36,160 nt of DNA from Actinomycetes bacterium (GTDB taxonomy: Bacteria; Actinomycetota; Acidimicrobiia; Acidimicrobiales; RAAP-2): the NCBI GenBank assembly GCA_021794655.1, contig JAJYQJ010000093.1, forward strand, positions 1 to 36,160, written 5' to 3'. Positions 22,445 through 32,373 of the stretch are shown in pieces. The notes under the pieces were generated by a model. It was not told where the DNA came from. It ran no database searches and worked only from the letters and a program-made list of their open reading frames with translations. Each line of letters begins with the position of its first letter. Position 1 is the first letter of the stretch. Both the position numbers and the translations under genes were made by a program.

Positions 22445-23280
22445 AAGACGAGTTCGACAGTTTGGCTGGCGGGAGCAGCTCGGGTGATCAAGGCGGTCGT
22501 GAGTTGGGAGAGCTAGAAGAGTCGTTGCGCTCTCGCTGTAGTGAGGGAAAGAAACTTCTTATCCCATACGTCACGGCCGGGATGTGTGCGGAGTGGGTCG
22601 AGATCGTCTTGGCACTCGAGGCCGGAGGGGCAGACGCTATCGAGATAGGGATCCCGTTCTCTGACCCGATGATGGATGGTCCAGTTATCCAGCGTGCGTC
22701 GGCTAAAGCGCTTTTGAGGGGGACCACTCCGGTTGGAGTTCTCGGTGAGCTCGCACGAGCCTCGTTGAGCGTGCCGGTGGTGGTCATGACGTACTACAAC
22801 CTTGTGCTTCATATGGGCCACTACCGCATGGCTCATGAACTGCGCGCTGCGGGCGTCTCGGGTGTGATCATAGCGGATCTGCCTTTGGAAGAGCTCGGGC
22901 CATGGTCCAGTGAGTCGGACGGGTTGGGCATCGCGACCGTGCTTATGGTTGCCCCTACGACAACTCCTCAAAGAGCTGCCGCGATCTGCAAGCGTTCACA
23001 AGGGTTTGTCTACTGTGTGTCACGAATGGGCGTTACAGGAGAGCAGGGCACGCTCGGGAGTGCGGCTGCTTCGCTTGCCAAGAGGATCAAGGGGCTGACG
23101 GACATGCCGGTGTGCATTGGGATCGGAGTATCCTCGGCCAAACAAGCTGTTGAGGCGTGTCAAGAGGCAGACGGAGTCGTCGTCGGGTCTTCGTTGGTGA
23201 GACGGGTACTAGAAGGTGAAGGAACTGCCGGCGTAGAAGCGTTCATAGGCGAGATGAGGCGAGCTCTAGACTCGATCTAG
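22441..23280 (+). CDS. trpA: Tryptophan synthase alpha subunit
   Basis: The 279-residue TIM barrel cleaves indole-3-glycerol phosphate to indole and G3P, passing indole to TrpB. Catalytic Glu and Asp are in [52 protein letters not shown] and [13 protein letters not shown] complete the pattern. The first 25 residues are a Gly/Ser/Glu-rich extension. It closes the plus-strand biosynthetic array and converges on fabF with a 60-base gap. Confidence 0.95.
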
Positions 23281-23340
23281 GGCAGCCAAGTTCCAGGAGC
23301 AGCCTCTCCCCAGAGTCAGCCTCGCTCGTTTTCGTTAGCG

Positions 23341-24537
23341 TCAGGCTGGAAGCAGGACGAGGCAGCCGTTGTGGCCTCCGAATCCAAAAGAGTTAGAGAT
23401 GATCGGTCCTGGTTCCCACTTTCGCGGGGCCCCCGAGACTACGTCGAGATGTATCTGTGGGTCGTGTTGCTCGTGGCCCGCGGTTGGCGGTATCAGGCCG
23501 TGTTTCATCGTCAGTGCTGACGCGACGGTCTCGATCGCTCCTGCGGCAGCGAGGCCATGGCCTGTGACACCTTTTGTCGAAGTAATTGGTGGGCCAGGCG
23601 TGCCGAAGACCTTGTTGACGGCTAGAGACTCAGCGAGGTCGTTCAGCGGAGTCGAGGTTCCGTGGGCGTTGATGTGTCGAATGTCCGAGGGCTTGATACC
23701 GGCGTCCTCTACTGCCATCTCCATGCATGTGATAGCTCCTTGGCCCTCTGGCGAGGGAGCTGTTATATGGTAGGCGTCTGCGGTGCTGGCCGTACCGGCG
23801 AGTTCAGCGTATATATGTGCCCCACGTCGAGTTGCCCTCTCCCAATCCTCCAAGACGACAGCTGCAGCACCTTCGGCCATGACGAATCCGTCTCGGCGCA
23901 CATCGAACGGCCTCGACTCGCCAGAGGTGGACAGCGCCGTCATATTCGCAAAAGCTGCGATGGCTACAGGGTGAAGCGACGCTTCGGATCCGCCTCCCAA
24001 AGCGACGTCACAGCGTCCCGACGCGACCAGTCGGGCTGCTGCCGCGATTGAATGGCTACCCGCGGCACACGCAGTAACGACGGTCTCTGACGGCCCTCTC
24101 CAGCCCCAGCGAATCGATATGTGAGCAGCCCCGGCATTAGCCATCATCATCGGGACAAGAAACGGGGACACTCTGCGAGCCCCGCGTTGTTCGTAAACGT
24201 TGACTTGCTCAGCGAGAGTGTGAAATCCTCCCACTCCGGTTGCGAAGACGACTCCGGCCCGATCTGGGTCCGCGCCCACGTTCCCTGCGTCACTAAGAGC
24301 CATCTCCGCGGATGCGACGGCAAACTGAGAGAACCTGTCGACACGGCGAACTTCTTTGGGGCCGAACCAGGTCGACGGGTCAAAGTCAGGCACCCTGCGT
24401 TCTCCTGAAACCACTGGATTGACGAGGCCTTCCCATAGAGCGTCGACGCCGACCCCACAGCAGGTGACAGCGCCCAAACCAGTTATCGCTACCCGCCTAC
24501 CTCGAACGGGTCCATCCGGACCAGTTCCCAGGAGCAT
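23341..24537 (-). CDS. fabF: Beta-ketoacyl-ACP synthase II
   Basis: The 398-residue condensing enzyme extends acyl-ACP with malonyl-ACP. The Cys-His-His triad is present: TACAAGSHSIAAA, NAHGTSTPLND and TKGVTGHGLAAAGAIE, where the usual S-M and L-G are replaced around the second His. SNSFGFGGHNGCLVL is the C-terminal signature. Its ATG overlaps the acpP stop (TAATG), so the ACP and its condensing enzyme are translationally linked. Confidence 0.95.
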   Translation of the reverse strand: MLLGTGPDGPVRGRRVAITGLGAVTCCGVGVDALWEGLVNPVVSGERRVPDFDPSTWFGPKEVRRVDRFSQFAVASAEMALSDAGNVGADPDRAGVVFATGVGGFHTLAEQVNVYEQRGARRVSPFLVPMMMANAGAAHISIRWGWRGPSETVVTACAAGSHSIAAAARLVASGRCDVALGGGSEASLHPVAIAAFANMTALSTSGESRPFDVRRDGFVMAEGAAAVVLEDWERATRRGAHIYAELAGTASTADAYHITAPSPEGQGAITCMEMAVEDAGIKPSDIRHINAHGTSTPLNDLAESLAVNKVFGTPGPPITSTKGVTGHGLAAAGAIETVASALTMKHGLIPPTAGHEQHDPQIHLDVVSGAPRKWEPGPIISNSFGFGGHNGCLVLLPA

Positions 24538-24776
24538 TAGAGCTTTCCGGAGATCAGACTGTAGGCCTGGCCAATGGTGGTGATGTCTTCGAGCTCGGAC
24601 TCCTCGACCGACACGTCGAAGGCCTCTTCTAAGGCCATGACAAGTTCAACCAGGTCGAGGCTGTCTGCGTCAAGGTCTTCCGAAAATCGCGCTTCAAGTG
24701 TCACCTTCTCGGCCGGCACTTGAAGTACCTCGACGGCACAGTCACGGAACCGCGTGAAGGTCGGATCGTTATCCAC
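24537..24776 (-). CDS. acpP: Acyl carrier protein
   Basis: The 79-residue acidic protein has the 4'-phosphopantetheine attachment motif DADSLDLVELVMALEEAF with its Ser, in a typical ACP four-helix layout. It carries growing acyl chains for FabF and FabG. The GTG start has AAAGGAG about nine bases upstream. A 229-base gap, including an AT-rich tract, separates it from fabG, so it may have its own promoter. Confidence 0.95.
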   Translation of the reverse strand: MDNDPTFTRFRDCAVEVLQVPAEKVTLEARFSEDLDADSLDLVELVMALEEAFDVSVEESELEDITTIGQAYSLISGKL

Positions 24777-25005
24777 AGTAAGTTGCTCCTTTAAGTTATT
24801 CTATATTGGTCAATTTTAATATAAGGACTACGCCTGGCTCGGGTATCGAGATGCACTATCTGCAAATGTTATAAAGCAGCCCATGTTATACGGTCGCCTA
24901 TGTCACAGCGGTTGACGCAGTTAGCCGGTCGGTCCGTCTCTTTCGAGAGCCCCCCGGTCTGGGTAGATATGATAGATCCTCGATTCGGCAAGCGCCAGAG
25001 CTCTC
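24777..25005 (-). promoter_or_regulatory. AT-rich intergenic region before acpP-fabF
   Basis: This 229-base gap contains a stretch at about 24785-24835 much richer in A/T than its surroundings, with TAGAAT on the minus strand (24803 to 24798) as a possible -10 box. An 8-base direct repeat ATGTTATA occurs at 24866-24873 and 24883-24890. This is a plausible site for promoter or regulator binding; the exact start is not resolved. Confidence 0.4.
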
Positions 25006-25785
25006 TCAGAGTCCCATCCCAAGGCCTCCGTCGACTGGTATAAGCGAACCTGTTATATACGATGCCGCGCTCGATGCCAAGAAGCCGACGGCCTCAGCGA
25101 CGTCGTTGGGGGTTGCGGCCCTCCCGATCGGCACCATTGCGGTCAGCTCGTTAATCCGAGCTTCGCCGAGGTCGTTGGTCATATCAGTATCGACGACACC
25201 CGGTGCGACGAGGTTGACCGTGATCTGACGGCTTGCCACTTCTCTCGCAAGCGATCGGGCCATGCCGACAAGCCCGGCTTTTGAGGCCGCATAGTTAGCT
25301 TGGCCGGGAAGGCCGACAAATGCCCCGATAGAGGAGATGAAGATAATCCTCCCGCTGTGGGCGCGCAGCATCTTTGGAAGAGCCCGTTTCGCGACACGAA
25401 AAGAGCCCGTCAGGTTCGTGTCGATCACAGCGTCCCAGGCTTGATCGTTCATTCGAATCGCGAGGGTATCTCTCGTAATGCCGGCGTTAGAAACGAGGAC
25501 TTCGACTGGTCCAAAAAGGTCCTCGATTTCTGAGTACGCAGCGTCGATTTGGTCCGGTTCGGTAACGTCGCACGCGATAGGCAAGCAAGTATCTGGGTCA
25601 TATTTCGCAAGATACTCGGGCGTAGTGTCCCCGCGGTAGGTCGTGGCTACACGATCGCCTCGTGCGAGGAACCAAGCGACACACGCAGCTCCAATTCCGC
25701 GTGAACCACCAGTTACAAATACGGTCCGCGCTTTAGCTTGAATCTCGCCCGGAGCCGCACCATATTCCGCCTGGCCTGTACTCAT
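25006..25785 (-). CDS. fabG: 3-oxoacyl-ACP reductase
   Basis: The 259-residue short-chain dehydrogenase reduces 3-oxoacyl-ACP with NADPH. It shows the Rossmann motif VFVTGGSRGIGAAC, SNAGITRD, the active-site Ser in FISSIGAFVG and YAASK catalytic Tyr/Lys, and the C-terminal ITGSLIPVDGGLGMGL. The ATG at 25785 has AGGAG about seven bases upstream and overlaps the fabD stop (ATGA); an in-frame GTG at 25812 is less likely because it lies inside fabD. Confidence 0.94.
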   Translation of the reverse strand: MSTGQAEYGAAPGEIQAKARTVFVTGGSRGIGAACVAWFLARGDRVATTYRGDTTPEYLAKYDPDTCLPIACDVTEPDQIDAAYSEIEDLFGPVEVLVSNAGITRDTLAIRMNDQAWDAVIDTNLTGSFRVAKRALPKMLRAHSGRIIFISSIGAFVGLPGQANYAASKAGLVGMARSLAREVASRQITVNLVAPGVVDTDMTNDLGEARINELTAMVPIGRAATPNDVAEAVGFLASSAASYITGSLIPVDGGLGMGL

Positions 25786-27041
25786 CGTCGTTCTCCTTCC
25801 ACCTTCAACCACAACAGAGGTTGGCCTTCTTGGACCCGTTCACCGGCGGTCGCCAGCCAACGCACGAGCACGCCTTCGAACGGGGTCCGCACATCGGCTA
25901 CTCCAACTCTTCCAACGAGATCTCCGACGTTTAGATGAGCGTCGCGGGCGTCGGTGTCAACCATCCCAGCGGTCATACCTCCAGTTCCTGGCAGCAAGCC
26001 GGCCCCTGGGGCATGAAGGGACTCCTCGGGAGAAAAGATCCCCGTACTGGGACTGACGACCACTCGTTCTGAGATGTAGAGATGCTCGCCGTGGTGAACG
26101 TTTGGATCCATCGCGACCGTCTTGGTGGGAGCGATCACGTCCATCATCGTGTCGAGATCGTCGGGTGTCGCTACCGAGAGCGTGTGTAGTTCCGGGGCGA
26201 TTCTGCGTGCGAGCCCGCTCAGGACGCCACCTGGCCCCACTTCGACAAGGGTCGTCGCGCCAAAACCAATCAAGGTTTCAACTCCTTGGTACCATCTGAC
26301 GGGGCTGCACAGCTGCGCAGAGAGCAAGGCAGGCCATTCGTCACGGTCGTCATGAAAATGGCCGTCTACGTTTGACACGACCGGAACTTCTGGCGTCTGA
26401 AACGAAACCTGTGCGAGAGCGTCACGCAGCTCGGCTCTCGCCCCGAGCATGAGCGGCGTATGGAACGCGCCTGAGACCTGGAGCCGAATAACTCGTTTTA
26501 CCCCGAGCTTCGTCGCAACTTCGCAGGCTTTCTCGACGCCTTCGAACGTACCGCCTATGACCACCTGTCCTGGTGCGTTATAGTTTGCTACCCAGACGTC
26601 GCTCTCTGCCCTGTAACATGCGGCTTGTGCGTCGGAGTCGGAGATACCGATCAGGGCAGCCATAGTGCCGCGCGTCGACGCGGCAGCAGTTGCCATAGCG
26701 TGCCCTCGTGCGACCGCGAGCCTCAACCCCTCGCTGAATTCGATCGCACCGCTCGCGATCAAAGAGGAGTACTCCCCAAGGCTGTGTCCTGCGCACGCAC
26801 CAGGGGAAAACCCGAGACGCTCGATTGCATCCAAGACGACGAGGCTCTGGGTGAGAGTTGCAAGTTGGGCGTTGAACGTCAACGTCAGCTCTGCGATCGG
26901 GGCTTCGGTGAGGAGGTAGGCGATATCGACCCCCGAAGCGTTTGACGCCTCGGTGACGACCTCCCAGGAGGGATGGTCCACCCACGCGGCGCCCATTTGG
27001 AATCGTTGTGATCCCTGACCTGGAAAGGTGAATGCCAGCAC
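25782..27041 (-). CDS. fabD: Malonyl-CoA:ACP transacylase with C-terminal barrel-sandwich (biotinyl/lipoyl-like) extension
   Basis: Residues 1-300 form a normal FabD: FPGQGSQ at 6-12, nucleophile Ser87 in GHSLGEYSS, Arg112 and His194 in SGAFHTPLM. It loads malonyl groups onto ACP. Unlike usual FabD (about 310 residues), this protein is 419 long. Residues 325-415 hold two similar half-motifs: RVVVSPSTGIFSP and, after a Gly-rich insert, LNVGDLVGRVG; then DVRTPFEGVLVRWLATAGERV and EGQPLLWLKV. This is the pattern of a biotinyl/lipoyl barrel-sandwich domain, but the hairpin between halves (VGVADVRT, about 380-386) has no Lys to carry biotin or lipoate. The GTG at 27041 has GGAGAG eight bases upstream. 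Function of the extension is unknown. Confidence 0.9.
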   Translation of the reverse strand: MLAFTFPGQGSQRFQMGAAWVDHPSWEVVTEASNASGVDIAYLLTEAPIAELTLTFNAQLATLTQSLVVLDAIERLGFSPGACAGHSLGEYSSLIASGAIEFSEGLRLAVARGHAMATAAASTRGTMAALIGISDSDAQAACYRAESDVWVANYNAPGQVVIGGTFEGVEKACEVATKLGVKRVIRLQVSGAFHTPLMLGARAELRDALAQVSFQTPEVPVVSNVDGHFHDDRDEWPALLSAQLCSPVRWYQGVETLIGFGATTLVEVGPGGVLSGLARRIAPELHTLSVATPDDLDTMMDVIAPTKTVAMDPNVHHGEHLYISERVVVSPSTGIFSPEESLHAPGAGLLPGTGGMTAGMVDTDARDAHLNVGDLVGRVGVADVRTPFEGVLVRWLATAGERVQEGQPLLWLKVEGERR

Positions 27042-27086
27042 GCGTATGTCTCTCCGAAGAAGTCCTGTACCGCCGCTACGGGCAGT

Positions 27087-27146
27087 GATTCGTCTAAGTA
27101 TTCGTCTAAGTATTCGTCTAAGTATTCGTCTAAGTATCTGTCTGTG
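27087..27146. repeat. 12-bp tandem repeat upstream of fabD
   Basis: The unit TATTCGTCTAAG occurs in three perfect copies (27099-27134), preceded by a near-perfect copy at 27087-27098 (first base differs) and followed by a degenerate copy, TATCTGTCTGTG, at 27135-27146. It lies 46-105 bases upstream of the fabD start, in the leader or promoter region of the fab operon. On the minus strand the unit reads CTTAGACGAATA. One frame would encode Tyr-Leu-Asp-Glu repeats, but that frame also runs through the tRNA and is not a gene. Confidence 0.85.
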
Positions 27147-27316
27147 TATCCACGGTAGCGCTTAGAGTCTTCCACGTTCTTACAAGGTGGATAACTCGCA
27201 CAGTAGATAACTTCGCTCAAAGGAGCGTCGCTAACAACTGAGACAGGTACGACGACAACGTTAGCGCTTGAGCGGACGGTCGTTCGGTTACCGGTCGGTA
27301 TTGTAGAGGGGAAACC

Positions 27317-27403
27317 TGGTGCCCGGAGCGGGACTCGAACCCGCACACCCTTACGGGCAGAGGCTTTTGAGGCCTCCGCGTCTACCGATTCCGCCATCCG
27401 GGC
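27317..27403 (-). tRNA. tRNA-Leu (CAA anticodon)
   Basis: The minus strand folds as a class II tRNA: acceptor stem GCCCGGA (27403 to 27397) with TCCGGGC, a D-arm GCGGAATCGGTAGACGC, anticodon stem GAGGC/GCCTC with loop CTCAAAA (anticodon CAA, reading UUG), a long variable arm around TGCCCGTAAGGGT, and a T-arm GCGGGTTCGAGTCCCGC. The discriminator is A and the CCA end (27319 to 27317) is encoded in the DNA. It lies between the divergent menC and fabD genes. Confidence 0.96.
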
Positions 27404-27445
27404 GTAAGTTGAGAGCATACTCGATACCCGAGGAGAGAACTGTCG

Positions 27446-28594
27446 ATGAGACTTTGCAAGGTCGAAGTATTCCAAGCGAACCTTTCCCTGCGCACCGGGA
27501 TCGAGAGTGCGAACGAGACCCACATGGAAAGGCCGGTAACATTTGTAAAGATTACGACAGACTCCGTCGAGGGATGGGGGGAGTCGTCAGCTCTTATCGC
27601 TGGCACGAGCGTTGATCCGCCCGCGGCGTACATTACCGAGGTGCTAAAGGAAAAAGTCGTTCCAAGCGTTGTCGGGATCGTACGTGAACGCGACGGGGAA
27701 CTGCCCGACTCAGCCACTGTGACGAGGCAACTTCTCAAAGACGGAGATCACCCGTTAGCTGTGGCGTGCATGGAGATGGCGTTGCTCGACGCGGAGCTCT
27801 TAGAGGAAAAGCTCTCATTGCCCGAAAAGATTGGTTCAAACGGCACGAAGGTGTCGGTTGGGACGGTCCTTGGGATTCCGAGCAGTCGTGACCTTGGCCA
27901 ACTCATCTCAGAGGTGGATCGCGCTCTTGAGAGCGGTTGGGCACGAATCCGGTTAAAGGTGAGGCCGGGTTGGGACGTAGCGCCCGCATTCGCGGTGAGA
28001 AGGAGATTTACCGACCTGTGTTTCCAGATAGACTGCAACGGGTCCTATAGCCCGCTCAGTGTTCGATCGGAGATACCGTCGCTCTGGAGAGAGATCGATA
28101 GTTTGGGGCTGGCCTGCATAGAGCAGCCGTTTGCGGCCCACGACCTCGAGTCGCACGCTGTATTGGCCGCAGCGATTGATACGCCGGTCTGCCTCGACGA
28201 GACGCTGACTTCGACTGCGGCGTTGGAGAGAGCGATAGATGTTGGCGCATGTGAGATCGCCTGTCTCAAACCCGCTCGCCTGGGCGGGGTGGCGGCGGCA
28301 CGAACTGCACTCGATCTATGTGGTCGCCGCGGCATACCGGCTTTTGTCGGCGGTTTTTTCGAAACCGGCCTGGCGCGTAGCGTTAACGTAGCGGTTGCGG
28401 GACTAGCTGAGGTGTCTATGCCAAGTGACGTCGGTGCGCCACTTGGATACCTGAGGGAGGCCCCTTTTTCGTTCCAATGGGGTTCAACTGGAGTCTTCGA
28501 TATTCCACAGACCCCGGTCCCCGGGTTAGGGTCACACTGCGAGGAAGCTATTTTCAACGAGTTTGCAACTACGGTGTTAACCCAAGACCTTTGA
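27446..28594 (+). CDS. menC: o-Succinylbenzoate synthase (enolase superfamily)
   Basis: The 382-residue enolase-superfamily protein most resembles MenC, which dehydrates SHCHC to o-succinylbenzoate in menaquinone synthesis. Metal ligands and catalytic Lys are visible: ARIRLKVRPGWD (KxK-type Lys), FQIDCNGSY (Asp), ACIEQPFAAHD (Glu), CLDETLTS (Asp) and CLKPARLGGV (Lys), with GGFFETGLARS near the C-terminus. The start ATG has GAGGAGAG eight bases upstream. Some relatives are N-acylamino acid racemases or bifunctional, so substrate is inferred, supported by menF and menG in this window. Confidence 0.88.
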   Translation: MRLCKVEVFQANLSLRTGIESANETHMERPVTFVKITTDSVEGWGESSALIAGTSVDPPAAYITEVLKEKVVPSVVGIVRERDGELPDSATVTRQLLKDGDHPLAVACMEMALLDAELLEEKLSLPEKIGSNGTKVSVGTVLGIPSSRDLGQLISEVDRALESGWARIRLKVRPGWDVAPAFAVRRRFTDLCFQIDCNGSYSPLSVRSEIPSLWREIDSLGLACIEQPFAAHDLESHAVLAAAIDTPVCLDETLTSTAALERAIDVGACEIACLKPARLGGVAAARTALDLCGRRGIPAFVGGFFETGLARSVNVAVAGLAEVSMPSDVGAPLGYLREAPFSFQWGSTGVFDIPQTPVPGLGSHCEEAIFNEFATTVLTQDL

Positions 28595-28620
28595 GCGCAA
28601 AACGGAAAATTGCGTAGAAT
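28591..28620 (+). promoter_or_regulatory. Promoter of the helical-protein/ANTAR operon
   Basis: TTGAGC (28591-28596) and TAGAAT (28615-28620) are separated by 18 bases, a good sigma-70-type match at both boxes. TAGGGA (28632-28637) follows as ribosome site before the TTG at 28642. The -35 box overlaps the last codons of menC. Confidence 0.55.
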
Positions 28621-28641
28621 AGGGCAATCATTAGGGATGCG

Positions 28642-28923
28642 TTGATTGAGCGACGAATACGAGATCTTCACGCGCGACTGCTACACGTTCGAAACGAGCT
28701 CTCTTTACTCGACGAACAGATTTCGGTCGTTAGTGAAGGGGCTGAAGAAGCGCGGGTGCGCGCTCTTGTTTCAGAAACACCGTTAGCTACACACGACTAT
28801 GAAGGGGCGAGACGCCATGGAGAGGCGATGCTTCGTGCACGTGCAATGTTGAGCGCAACGCAGGAGGATCTGGAGCGGCGTAGGGATGAGTTGCTCTACA
28901 AAGTTTCGAGGAGGTCCCAGTGA
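28642..28923 (+). CDS. Small helical (coiled-coil) protein coupled to the ANTAR regulator
   Basis: This 93-residue protein is almost entirely charged amphipathic helix: IRDLHARLLHVRNELSLLDE, then SEGAEEARVRALVSE, and RAMLSATQEDLERRRDELLY, so an antiparallel coiled-coil is likely. I do not recognise a named function. It starts at a TTG with TAGGGA upstream and ends on a GTGA overlap with the response regulator gene, preceded by GAGGAGG. Such tight coupling to a signalling gene hints at a partner or RNA/ribosome-associated role, which is inference. No signal peptide or membrane segment is present. Confidence 0.72.
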   Translation: MIERRIRDLHARLLHVRNELSLLDEQISVVSEGAEEARVRALVSETPLATHDYEGARRHGEAMLRARAMLSATQEDLERRRDELLYKVSRRSQ

Positions 28924-29552
28924 CGGTCGATAACGCAGGGGCATCGAGTGGCGTTGAACCGCTCCGGGTGGTGATTGCCGAAGACGAGGTGATAATCCGA
29001 CTCGACTTAAAAGAGATACTCGTTGGTGCGGGTTACGAGGTCGTCGGTGTCACGGGCCGGGGAGACGAGGCGCTCTCGCTGATCAACGAACACGTTCCAG
29101 ACATCGCAATCTTGGACATAAAGATGGCGGGGATGGACGGGATTCAAGTCGCCCGTTCGATCAACCCGGAACACTCGGTCGCGGTCTTGATTCTTACCGC
29201 GTTTAGCCAGAGGGATCTCATCGACGAAGCGAGGGAGGCCGGAGTGGCCGCGTACCTCGTGAAGCCGTTCCGCCGTAACGAACTGCTGCCCGCACTCGAA
29301 AGGGTCGTCGTTCGACGCCGGGAGGGGATCGCGGACGAGAGTGAGGGCGCTCGAGTAGACGAACCGAGCGATAGCGCGGACGACAAGATCGAGACACGGC
29401 GTATTATCGACTCCGCGAAGGCGGTGTTGATGGACAAACACGGACTCGGTGAAGCCGACGCGTTCTCGTTCATACAACGCACCGCGATGCAGACTCGTCG
29501 CAGAATGCGTGACGTCGCACGAGACGTCATTGAGGGGTCGCTCGCTCCGTGA
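28920..29552 (+). CDS. ANTAR-domain response regulator (PdtaR-like)
   Basis: The 210-residue protein has a receiver domain (acidic pocket E21/D22, phospho-acceptor D66 in IAILDIKMAGMDG, Thr in LILTAFS, Lys in YLVKPFRR) joined by an acidic linker to a C-terminal ANTAR RNA-binding domain (about 155-205; IDSAKAVLMDKHGLGEADAF). Mycobacterial PdtaR works with kinase PdtaS and binds dual-hairpin RNAs to antiterminate transcription. No PdtaS-type kinase gene is in the window. The GTG at 28920 overlaps the upstream stop and has GAGGAGG upstream. Candidate RNA targets were not found here. Confidence 0.92.
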   Translation: MTVDNAGASSGVEPLRVVIAEDEVIIRLDLKEILVGAGYEVVGVTGRGDEALSLINEHVPDIAILDIKMAGMDGIQVARSINPEHSVAVLILTAFSQRDLIDEAREAGVAAYLVKPFRRNELLPALERVVVRRREGIADESEGARVDEPSDSADDKIETRRIIDSAKAVLMDKHGLGEADAFSFIQRTAMQTRRRMRDVARDVIEGSLAP

Positions 29553-29556
29553 CGTC

Positions 29557-32373
29557 GTGAGCCGCAATAGCGAATTGACGGGACCGCTACTCGCTCTCGA
29601 CGGAATGTCTCTCGCATTTCGGGCTTACTTCGCGCTCCCGACGACGTTGGCGACGTCAGACGGCGTCGTCACCAACGCTGTACATGGGTTTGCTGCGATG
29701 ATGACGAACTTAGTAAAGACGCAGGCGCCTTCAGGCCTCGTGGTTGCCTTCGATCTCCCTGAGGCGACGTTCAGGGACGAAATAGTTGAGGAGTACAAGG
29801 GTGGGCGGGCCGAAACGCCGGACGATCTCCTTCCACAGTTTGACATGATCCGAGAGCTCCTCACGGCGTTGTCGATCCCGGTATTGGAGGCGCCACGGTT
29901 CGAGGCCGACGACATCTTGGCGACTCTCGCACATAGATACTTTGAAGGTGGGAACGAGATCGTGATCGTGAGCGGTGATCGGGATCTCTTCCAGGTCGTG
30001 CGTGACCCTTACGTGAAGATGCTCTACAACCGAAAAGGGGTCAGCGACTACGATCTATACGACGAAGATGGCATAGTGGCGCGCACCGGCGTCACGCCGA
30101 GTCTGTACCCGTCACTCGCCGCGTTGAGGGGCGATCCCTCGGACAACCTTCCCGGGATACCCGGGGTTGGCGAGAAGACGGCGGCGAAGCTCCTCGCAAC
30201 CTACGGCACCCTCGACGCGATCTTTGACCACGTCGACGAGTTGACGCCGAAGCTCAGAGAAAACCTGGTAACCCACGAGTCCCGAGCGCGCTCGAACGCG
30301 AAGGTGATCCCACTTAGAACCGACGTTGAGATAGGCGACGGGTCCAACTTTACGTTGGGCAACTGGGACTACAGCCGAGCAAAGGAGTGTTTTGCGCGCT
30401 TTGAGCTGAGGACGCAGTGGACGCGGGTTGAAGCTCTCTTGCTCAACGGGAGTCTTGGGCAGCCAAACGCCGATTCGTCGCTGCCGACCCGAGGGGACGT
30501 GGGAGAAGACGAGGGCGAGACAACTTACCGTGACGACAAAGGCGACAAAGATCGAGCCACCCGCGACGCCCCGAAGAGTCGGCCGGCTCCACCCCTTGGA
30601 GGAGAAGTTGACCTCTCATCTCCTCGTAACGTTGCCGAAGCGTTGCAACTGCTGGGTAGCCTTCGTGAGCCCCGGGGCAACGAGTTCGTCGCAGCCGCGG
30701 CGATCTGGGATGGAGAACCGGGAAGATCTTCGCTCGCAGGTCTCGTTTTTTGTTCTCGGTCCTGCGATCGCTTCATTTGGATCGAGCGCGAGCTGCTCGT
30801 TGAGTCCTCCATCGTCGAGCACGTAAACGCTGCGTTCGGTGAGCAGGGGTTAGTTGGAGACGGCATGAAAGAGCTCTTCAGATCCCTGATCCCAACGGGT
30901 GTTGAGTGTAGGAACTTGACGATGGACACCGGCGTCGCCGAGTTCTTAATCGGTGAGGCACGAGACGAATTGAAGGAGTCGTCTCCTACTCTTACCCTCC
31001 ACGACGCGGCGGGTAACACTGATCGATCGGGCGAGTTCGCACTTCAAGACGGCGAGTACGCGGAGACGATCCGCAGTTGTGCGACCGCGTTGGCCGCGCG
31101 GGTGGGATCGGTCCCGTACAACTTCGAGTTGCTCGACGAACGAGGAATGCGGGTACTCCACGACGAGGTCGAGACGCCACTCGTCAGGGTGTTGGCAAAG
31201 ATGGAGATTACCGGTGTTCGCGTCGACGTCGACGAGCTGACGCGGATTGCGGAGTCGCTCAAGACGGAGACCGAAGAGCTCAAATCGCAGATCTTTGGAT
31301 TTGCAGGCCACGAACTGAACGTTAACTCGACCCCGCAGTTGAGGACGGTCCTCTTTGAGGAGTTGGGTCTCACTCCCGGGCGAAAGACAAAGACCGGGTT
31401 TTCTACCGACGTCTCCACACTGGAGCTACTTCGCGGCGAGCACCCGATTGTCGAGGCGTTGTTGAAGTACCGGGAGATAGAGAAACTGCGGTCGACCTAC
31501 GGGGTGAGCCTCCTAAAAGAGGTGGCGCAAGACGGACGAATTCACGCCTCGTTTCGTCAGACCGTGACGCGCACCGGACGGATCTCGTCTGAGCACCCTA
31601 ACCTGCATAACATCCCGACGCGAACCGACGCGGGCGCCCAGTTCCGTAAAGTGTTCATTCCTGAAGATCGATGGTCGTTCCTCGCGGCCGACTACGATCA
31701 GATAGAACTGAGGGTGTTGGCGCATCTCTCTAGCGACAGCGGGTTGTTGGAGGCGTTTCGCTCAGAGACCGACGTTCATCGCGCGGTTGCATCCGGCGTC
31801 TATGCGACGCCTGTCGACAAGGTCACCCACGCTCAACGAGAGCGCGCAAAGATGGTCTCTTACGGACTTATCTATGGAATGGAGCCGTTTGGATTGGCGA
31901 GGCGCCTTGCGACGAGCGTCGACGAGGCGCGTGAAATAATGAACCGTTACTTCAGCGCGTTCCCCGACGTGCAGAACTACATGAAACAGGTTGTCGCACA
32001 GGCGCGTGAGAAGGGATACACGTCTACCCCGATGGGACGCCGGCGCTACCTTCCGGATCTCGCGAGTTCGAACAAGAATCTTCGCCTGAGTGCGGAACGC
32101 CAAGCAATGAACGCCGGGATCCAAGGATTCGCAGCAGACATCTTCAAGATCGCACTCGTGAGGTTGGACGATGCGCTCGAATCGATGGGTCTAGATAGCA
32201 GGATTGTTCTCCAGGTGCACGACGAGGTGTTGTTGGAGGTCGCCCGAGGCGAAGAGGAGGTTGTCGGACAAGTTACGCTCGAGACGATGCGTGGAGCTTC
32301 GGAGTTGCTCGTTCCTCTGGAGGTTTCGATGGGGTGGGGGGAGTCTTGGTCTATCGCGAAGGCCCCTGATTAG
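29557..32373 (+). CDS. polA: DNA polymerase I
   Basis: The 938-residue family A polymerase fills repair gaps and removes RNA primers. The N-terminal 5'-3' exonuclease is intact: LLALDGMSLAFRAYFALP, DDILATLAHRY, VSGDRDLFQVV and RGDPSDNLPGIPGVGEKTAA. The central 3'-5' exonuclease region lacks the DxE metal motif (AAIWDGEPG stands near that position), so proofreading is probably absent, as in other actinobacterial PolA. The polymerase domain has motif A AADYDQIELRVLAH (near residue 710), motif B RAKMVSYGLIYGME and motif C QVHDEVLLEV. The GTG at 29557 is chosen because longer N-terminal frames lie inside the ANTAR gene. Confidence 0.96.
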   Translation: MSRNSELTGPLLALDGMSLAFRAYFALPTTLATSDGVVTNAVHGFAAMMTNLVKTQAPSGLVVAFDLPEATFRDEIVEEYKGGRAETPDDLLPQFDMIRELLTALSIPVLEAPRFEADDILATLAHRYFEGGNEIVIVSGDRDLFQVVRDPYVKMLYNRKGVSDYDLYDEDGIVARTGVTPSLYPSLAALRGDPSDNLPGIPGVGEKTAAKLLATYGTLDAIFDHVDELTPKLRENLVTHESRARSNAKVIPLRTDVEIGDGSNFTLGNWDYSRAKECFARFELRTQWTRVEALLLNGSLGQPNADSSLPTRGDVGEDEGETTYRDDKGDKDRATRDAPKSRPAPPLGGEVDLSSPRNVAEALQLLGSLREPRGNEFVAAAAIWDGEPGRSSLAGLVFCSRSCDRFIWIERELLVESSIVEHVNAAFGEQGLVGDGMKELFRSLIPTGVECRNLTMDTGVAEFLIGEARDELKESSPTLTLHDAAGNTDRSGEFALQDGEYAETIRSCATALAARVGSVPYNFELLDERGMRVLHDEVETPLVRVLAKMEITGVRVDVDELTRIAESLKTETEELKSQIFGFAGHELNVNSTPQLRTVLFEELGLTPGRKTKTGFSTDVSTLELLRGEHPIVEALLKYREIEKLRSTYGVSLLKEVAQDGRIHASFRQTVTRTGRISSEHPNLHNIPTRTDAGAQFRKVFIPEDRWSFLAADYDQIELRVLAHLSSDSGLLEAFRSETDVHRAVASGVYATPVDKVTHAQRERAKMVSYGLIYGMEPFGLARRLATSVDEAREIMNRYFSAFPDVQNYMKQVVAQAREKGYTSTPMGRRRYLPDLASSNKNLRLSAERQAMNAGIQGFAADIFKIALVRLDDALESMGLDSRIVLQVHDEVLLEVARGEEEVVGQVTLETMRGASELLVPLEVSMGWGESWSIAKAPD

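Follow-up and report, generated by a model that had tools for sequence, protein, structure and literature searches.

The window, the whole 36,160-nucleotide stretch analysed here, carries a 12-bp tandem array upstream of fabD. The array is best explained, with a probability of about 0.75, as a young and neutral minisatellite, born by slippage in the spacer between a tRNA-Leu gene and fabD, most likely within the fabD 5' UTR and with no regulatory role. The array is present in this genome (G000), is absent before fabD in the other genomes compared, and has many counterparts elsewhere in this genome. Replication slippage would have created the 12-bp minisatellite in a weakly constrained spacer. 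Changes in copy number would then lengthen or shorten a weakly structured leader by 12 nt at a time, with the start codon at least 46 nt away and the SD untouched, and would leave the spacing of promoter elements unaffected.

TRF identifies a 50-bp perfect period-12 sequence at 27088-27137 (4.2 copies, 100% match, score 100; no strand assigned), the top-scoring of nine rows for the window. The unit in TRF phase is ATTCGTCTAAGT, which reads ATACTTAGACGA on the minus strand. In the phase TATTCGTCTAAG, three identical copies occupy 27099-27134; they are preceded at 27087-27098 by a first copy with G in place of T and followed at 27135-27146 by a degenerate copy that, by our own count on reading the sequence, keeps 8 of the 12 bases of the unit. 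The first-pass annotation had described about five copies here, three of them identical, and both TRF and direct reading bear this out, the fifth copy being the degenerate one. The period-12 run from 27088 is, at 38 bases, the longest exact self-match in the window at periods 3-60; the maxima in 30 first-order Markov sequences of window length were 9-12. The copies stand head to tail, the unit falls in the range of about 10-60 bp and the run goes beyond chance, as in a minisatellite.

The gene fabD (25782-27041, minus strand) encodes a malonyl-CoA:ACP transacylase with a C-terminal extension. It was identified by PF00698 (residues 4-274 of the product, E 2.5e-29 in Pfam) and by the relatives, which align to the product from residue 1 or 2. 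The start is GTG at 27041, with an SD-like GGAGAG seen by eye at 27055-27050; given this start, the array lies 46-105 bases before fabD, as first proposed. The upstream neighbour is tRNA-Leu (CAA) at 27317-27403 (minus strand; ARAGORN, Rfam RF00005), whose end is separated from the downstream fabD by 275 bases, and the array therefore sits in the tRNA-to-fabD spacer. An Rfam search of 23000-30000 for known RNA elements gave three matches, with only the tRNA reaching the gathering score. A tRNA-Leu(CAA) is found around fabD in 19 of 30 loci, the window's included and some loci being incomplete, and its distance to fabD ranges from tens of bases to more than 1 kb among the loci listed. In five of the seven near relatives examined, the spacer carries a long opposite-strand ORF that is nitrilase-like by reading alone. 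This ORF and the varying tRNA-fabD distance indicate that the spacer is labile. An origin-like site was considered and rejected, since the DnaA-box-like site in the leader at 27186 (one mismatch) is one of six in the window, of which only that at 24769 is exact; dnaA itself was matched on contig C119.

The comparison set covers 172 genomes of the family, with no genome of the genus other than this one. Two adjacent units, with up to three mismatches allowed, stand before fabD in this genome only; the sole other family match to the two-unit pattern is in G025 (two units, three mismatches). For the leaders, 106 fabD loci were kept after a length filter, loci with the fabD start cut off having been removed. 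Among 84 distinct leaders (last 300 nt, the window's included), none other than the window's has an array of the ATTCGTCTAAGT unit, and viral contigs gave 0 exact matches to the 23-base two-unit pattern. The array, restricted to its lineage and located in a non-conserved stretch, thus appears lineage-specific, and it is probably young because its copies are uniform. The uniform copies and the occurrence of the array before fabD in this genome alone both favour the neutral reading. The recent expansion proposed earlier from the identical copies agrees with the finding that none of the other family genomes has adjacent units before fabD. It also agrees with a related species pair that differs in the copy number of a different unit at this place.

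In that pair of sister species, loci L099 and L106, a 15-bp unit is repeated 5.1 and 7.2 times, respectively, at the same place before fabD. The first 900 nt of the two fabD genes show 95.0% identity, and each array is largely homogenised to its own version of a unit that is unrelated to the window's. Sister species can therefore drift apart in copy number before a fabD gene that both retain, and such a difference in a like array favours neutrality. A 37-bp array lies farther upstream of fabD in L103. Arrays scoring at least 80 thus precede fabD in L099, L103 and L106, and less so in L090; in L099 and L106 the array is directly upstream of a leader element that L103 has as well. These arrays could mean that the place before fabD is favoured, and they give the strongest hint that it might be of consequence; together with a weak promoter match (see below) they count against the neutral reading. 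On a stronger version, the spacer before fabD would repeatedly gain arrays across this taxonomic order (units of 12 bp here, of 15 bp in L099 and L106 and of 37 bp in L103). Their length would then be a selected slow rheostat, setting how long the leader of the fatty-acid operon is or the context of its promoter. This we consider very doubtful.

Similar arrays are common in this genome. The sample covered 559,619 of its 2,707,925 bases, namely stretches L124-L144 and L185-L204 plus the window. Contigs C5, C81, C109, C117, C54, C119, C126, C134 and C145 were chosen since earlier analyses named them and the remaining stretches by number. The counts omit L123, a stretch overlapping the window. 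Overlapping TRF rows were merged and periods up to 100 were counted. At a score of at least 50 there are 119 arrays (21.3 per 100 kb), at least 80, 47 arrays (8.4 per 100 kb), and at least 100, 27 arrays; the fabD array ranks 26th and is ordinary for this genome. A Markov version of the first 303,352-base sample gave 0.3 arrays per 100 kb, compared with 0-7.9 in random versions of the relatives. The relatives were 13 of the 60 other genomes, all of higher G+C and sampled on fabD-bearing contigs. Their 389,570 bases contain 52 arrays scoring at least 50 (13.3 per 100 kb), nine scoring at least 80 (2.3 per 100 kb) and seven scoring at least 100; one 50-kb stretch of E. coli, used as a yardstick, has zero. 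Individual relatives (samples of 12.7-40 kb) range from 0 to 31.5 arrays per 100 kb at score 50, and four of the 13 match or exceed the density of this genome at scores of at least 50, a point against the neutral reading that comes from small samples. Because single relatives differ so widely, the raised level of arrays is not peculiar to this genome.

The units are mostly unlike one another. Among 178 arrays scoring at least 40, only five pairs of same-length units (11-40 bp) are at least 80% identical in any rotation or strand; the fabD unit is in none of the five, and it shares at most 8 of 12 bases with other 12-mer units. The abundance of similar arrays with mostly unlike units favours neutrality. 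Periods of 12-21 are frequent among the arrays of this genome. A 126-bp period array of 3.7 copies, outside the period limit of 100, lies at the start of a contig stretch (L128:3-463, C54). An 18-bp unit (16 of 18 bases alike) is common to L136:1062-1140 and L126:11107-11141, on separate contigs; this is one of the five pairs and looks truly related, a hint of what may be a dispersed repeat family.

The location of the arrays points the same way. ORFs were called by a greedy longest-ORF procedure (at least 90 aa for array counts, or at least 100 aa). By these calls, whose coding, intergenic and orientation counts are approximate because they are greedy and ignore tRNAs, 41 arrays fall in intergenic DNA, which makes up 8.6% of the total, 77 lie in ORFs and one is unassigned. 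Periods that are multiples of three account for 66 of the 77 ORF arrays versus 15 of the 41 intergenic ones. Convergent spacers, where no promoter is expected, hold 10 arrays in 7,387 bp; tandem spacers hold 25 in 24,816 bp, and divergent spacers, among which the window's own is classed, hold 6 in 15,878 bp. The density of intergenic arrays is thus highest in convergent and lowest in divergent spacers (P 0.013 for the two classes; P 0.033 at scores of at least 80, 6 vs 3). A general slippage process would leave such a pattern if selection then acted against arrays that fall within reading frames and, it seems, also within promoter-rich spacers. The neutral reading is favoured by this density in convergent spacers and by the occurrence of the three-base periods mainly in ORFs. 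A perfect repeat ahead of a gene thus counts for little as evidence of regulation in this genome, since similar arrays are common and are densest where promoters are not expected. Their abundance and placement speak for neutrality over the earlier suggestion that the array could tune fatty-acid synthesis, for which the analysis found no evidence.

Promoter placement was addressed with 40 distinct leaders from fabD genes sharing at least 56% identity, near-duplicates and the window's own leader removed. The motif found by the search, CGTGcCACACTGGg, has a log-likelihood of 289.5 (five shuffled sets, 46-53). In a two-fold hold-out, 20/20 and 19/20 leaders (39/40 together) scored above the 95% null; in more distant leaders just 2 of 30 did so. 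The extended -10-like motif common to related fabD leaders is CGTGNCACACTGG, and the variants in most leaders retain TGN followed by a hexamer of the type (C/A)A(C/G)A(C/A)T, which resembles an extended -10; the motif is accordingly read as a putative promoter. At up to one mismatch, CGTGNCACACTGG and its reversed pattern occur 11/10 times in G000, 14/28 in G011, 15/21 in G001, 22/30 in G005 and 15/15 in G013; it is no generally enriched word at this stringency, as the counts do not exceed the reversed pattern overall. The extended -10-like motif, given over 14 bp as CGTGNCACACTGGG, is seen in family fabD leaders (e.g., L010, L013, L045 and L017), where its distance to the start codon is between 18 and 107 bases. 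The motif is at 18 bases in 6 of the 40 leaders, a position that would fit a leaderless transcript.

The best match in the window is CGTGGAAGACTCTA at 27163-27176 (minus strand), with the hexamer AAGACT at 27171-27166. It is weak (P 0.032-0.052), scoring 7.2 versus 11.7-21.8 for 39 of the 40 relatives, with a motif derived from genomes of higher G+C. The match, upstream of the array, is 135 bases away from fabD. Without the 48-50 bp of the array this distance would be 85-87, and the group at 76-87 includes 15 of the 40 leaders. Because the best match is upstream, the array is placed in the 5' UTR, a weak placement. The fabD transcription start may be near 27160 and, if 27176-27163 is the promoter, the array would occupy about bases 22-71 of the transcript.

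This order bears on the proposal that copy number moves upstream promoter elements by about one helical turn relative to the start site and so tunes fabD. In its favour, no more than about 100 bp separate the array from the start codon, and the 15-bp arrays of L099 and L106 are just upstream of a conserved leader element. Repeats altering promoter spacing are known from other bacteria (PMC3899988). The -10-like hexamers (A/G)ATACT recur within the array, but these, in and beside it, are without the TGN extension, and the best motif match, weak as it is, is upstream of the array. A scan of 26900-27600 gave no sigma-70-like site, and the arrays of this genome are sparsest in divergent spacers. 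The shift of promoter elements put forward in the first-pass annotation thus finds no support here, and tuning by promoter spacing seems unlikely.

A candidate promoter upstream of the array also suits a different role, in which an AU-rich, weakly structured segment of the 5' UTR would affect ribosome access or mRNA decay through its length. The leader fold is indeed less stable than shuffled sequences: for 27160-27030, 199 of 200 shuffles have a fold of equal or greater stability (z +2.06), and for 27200-27020, 178 of 200 (z +1.07). The A+T-rich repeats explain this low structure without selection, and against 200 shuffles folding gave no sign of a selected RNA structure in the leader. Moreover, the array stops 46 nt short of the start codon, does not reach the SD and is not conserved; a modulator of leader length or translation is quite improbable. 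The candidate -10 upstream of the array and the low leader structure favour the neutral reading.

The equally spaced direct repeats recall an operator array to which a regulator of the fab operon would bind, and in other actinobacteria FasR or MabR controls the operon that contains fabD. Outside the array, however, the 12-mer at one mismatch is found six times in 2.7 Mb, where about 12 are expected, and the unit was not found before fabD in relatives. An operator or regulon was rejected, as the unit neither recurs beyond expectation in the genome nor is conserved in relatives, and is given very little credence. A translated LDEY repeat in a small gene overlapping the leader is least credible of all. 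On the minus strand, 27523-26885 forms an open frame of 212 codons in which the array would be translated as LDEY, but this frame crosses the tRNA gene and enters fabD out of frame. Its nearest in-frame start before the array, GTG at 27175, is inside the candidate promoter and has, by eye, no SD.

As a neutral minisatellite, the array resembles bacterial minisatellites and VNTRs in its short, uniform head-to-tail units, its lineage specificity and its position in a spacer. Copy number varies at bacterial VNTR loci; the array here is known from one genome. PMC2884548 proposes that small variable segments in bacteria arise by slippage between short repeats. The array also shares with the phase-variable promoter repeats of nadA, porA and hifA/hifB a tandem arrangement upstream of a gene and a length changeable in principle. 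Those repeats, as named in PMC3899988, have 1-4-base units within promoter/operator regions of surface-protein genes, whereas the unit here is 12 bp, probably downstream of the promoter and before a housekeeping gene. No literature tying the fabD promoter to tandem-repeat copy number was found. By itself the array is of little consequence. Were its copy number to tune fabD, a core metabolic operon would be under a repeat-driven rheostat, in contrast to the surface-protein genes of PMC3899988.

The C-terminal extension of FabD, about 120 residues encoded by 25782-26140 (minus strand), resembles by eye a degenerate biotinyl/lipoyl domain. Pfam gives the acyl transferase domain only, and relatives match the product up to residues 413-419.
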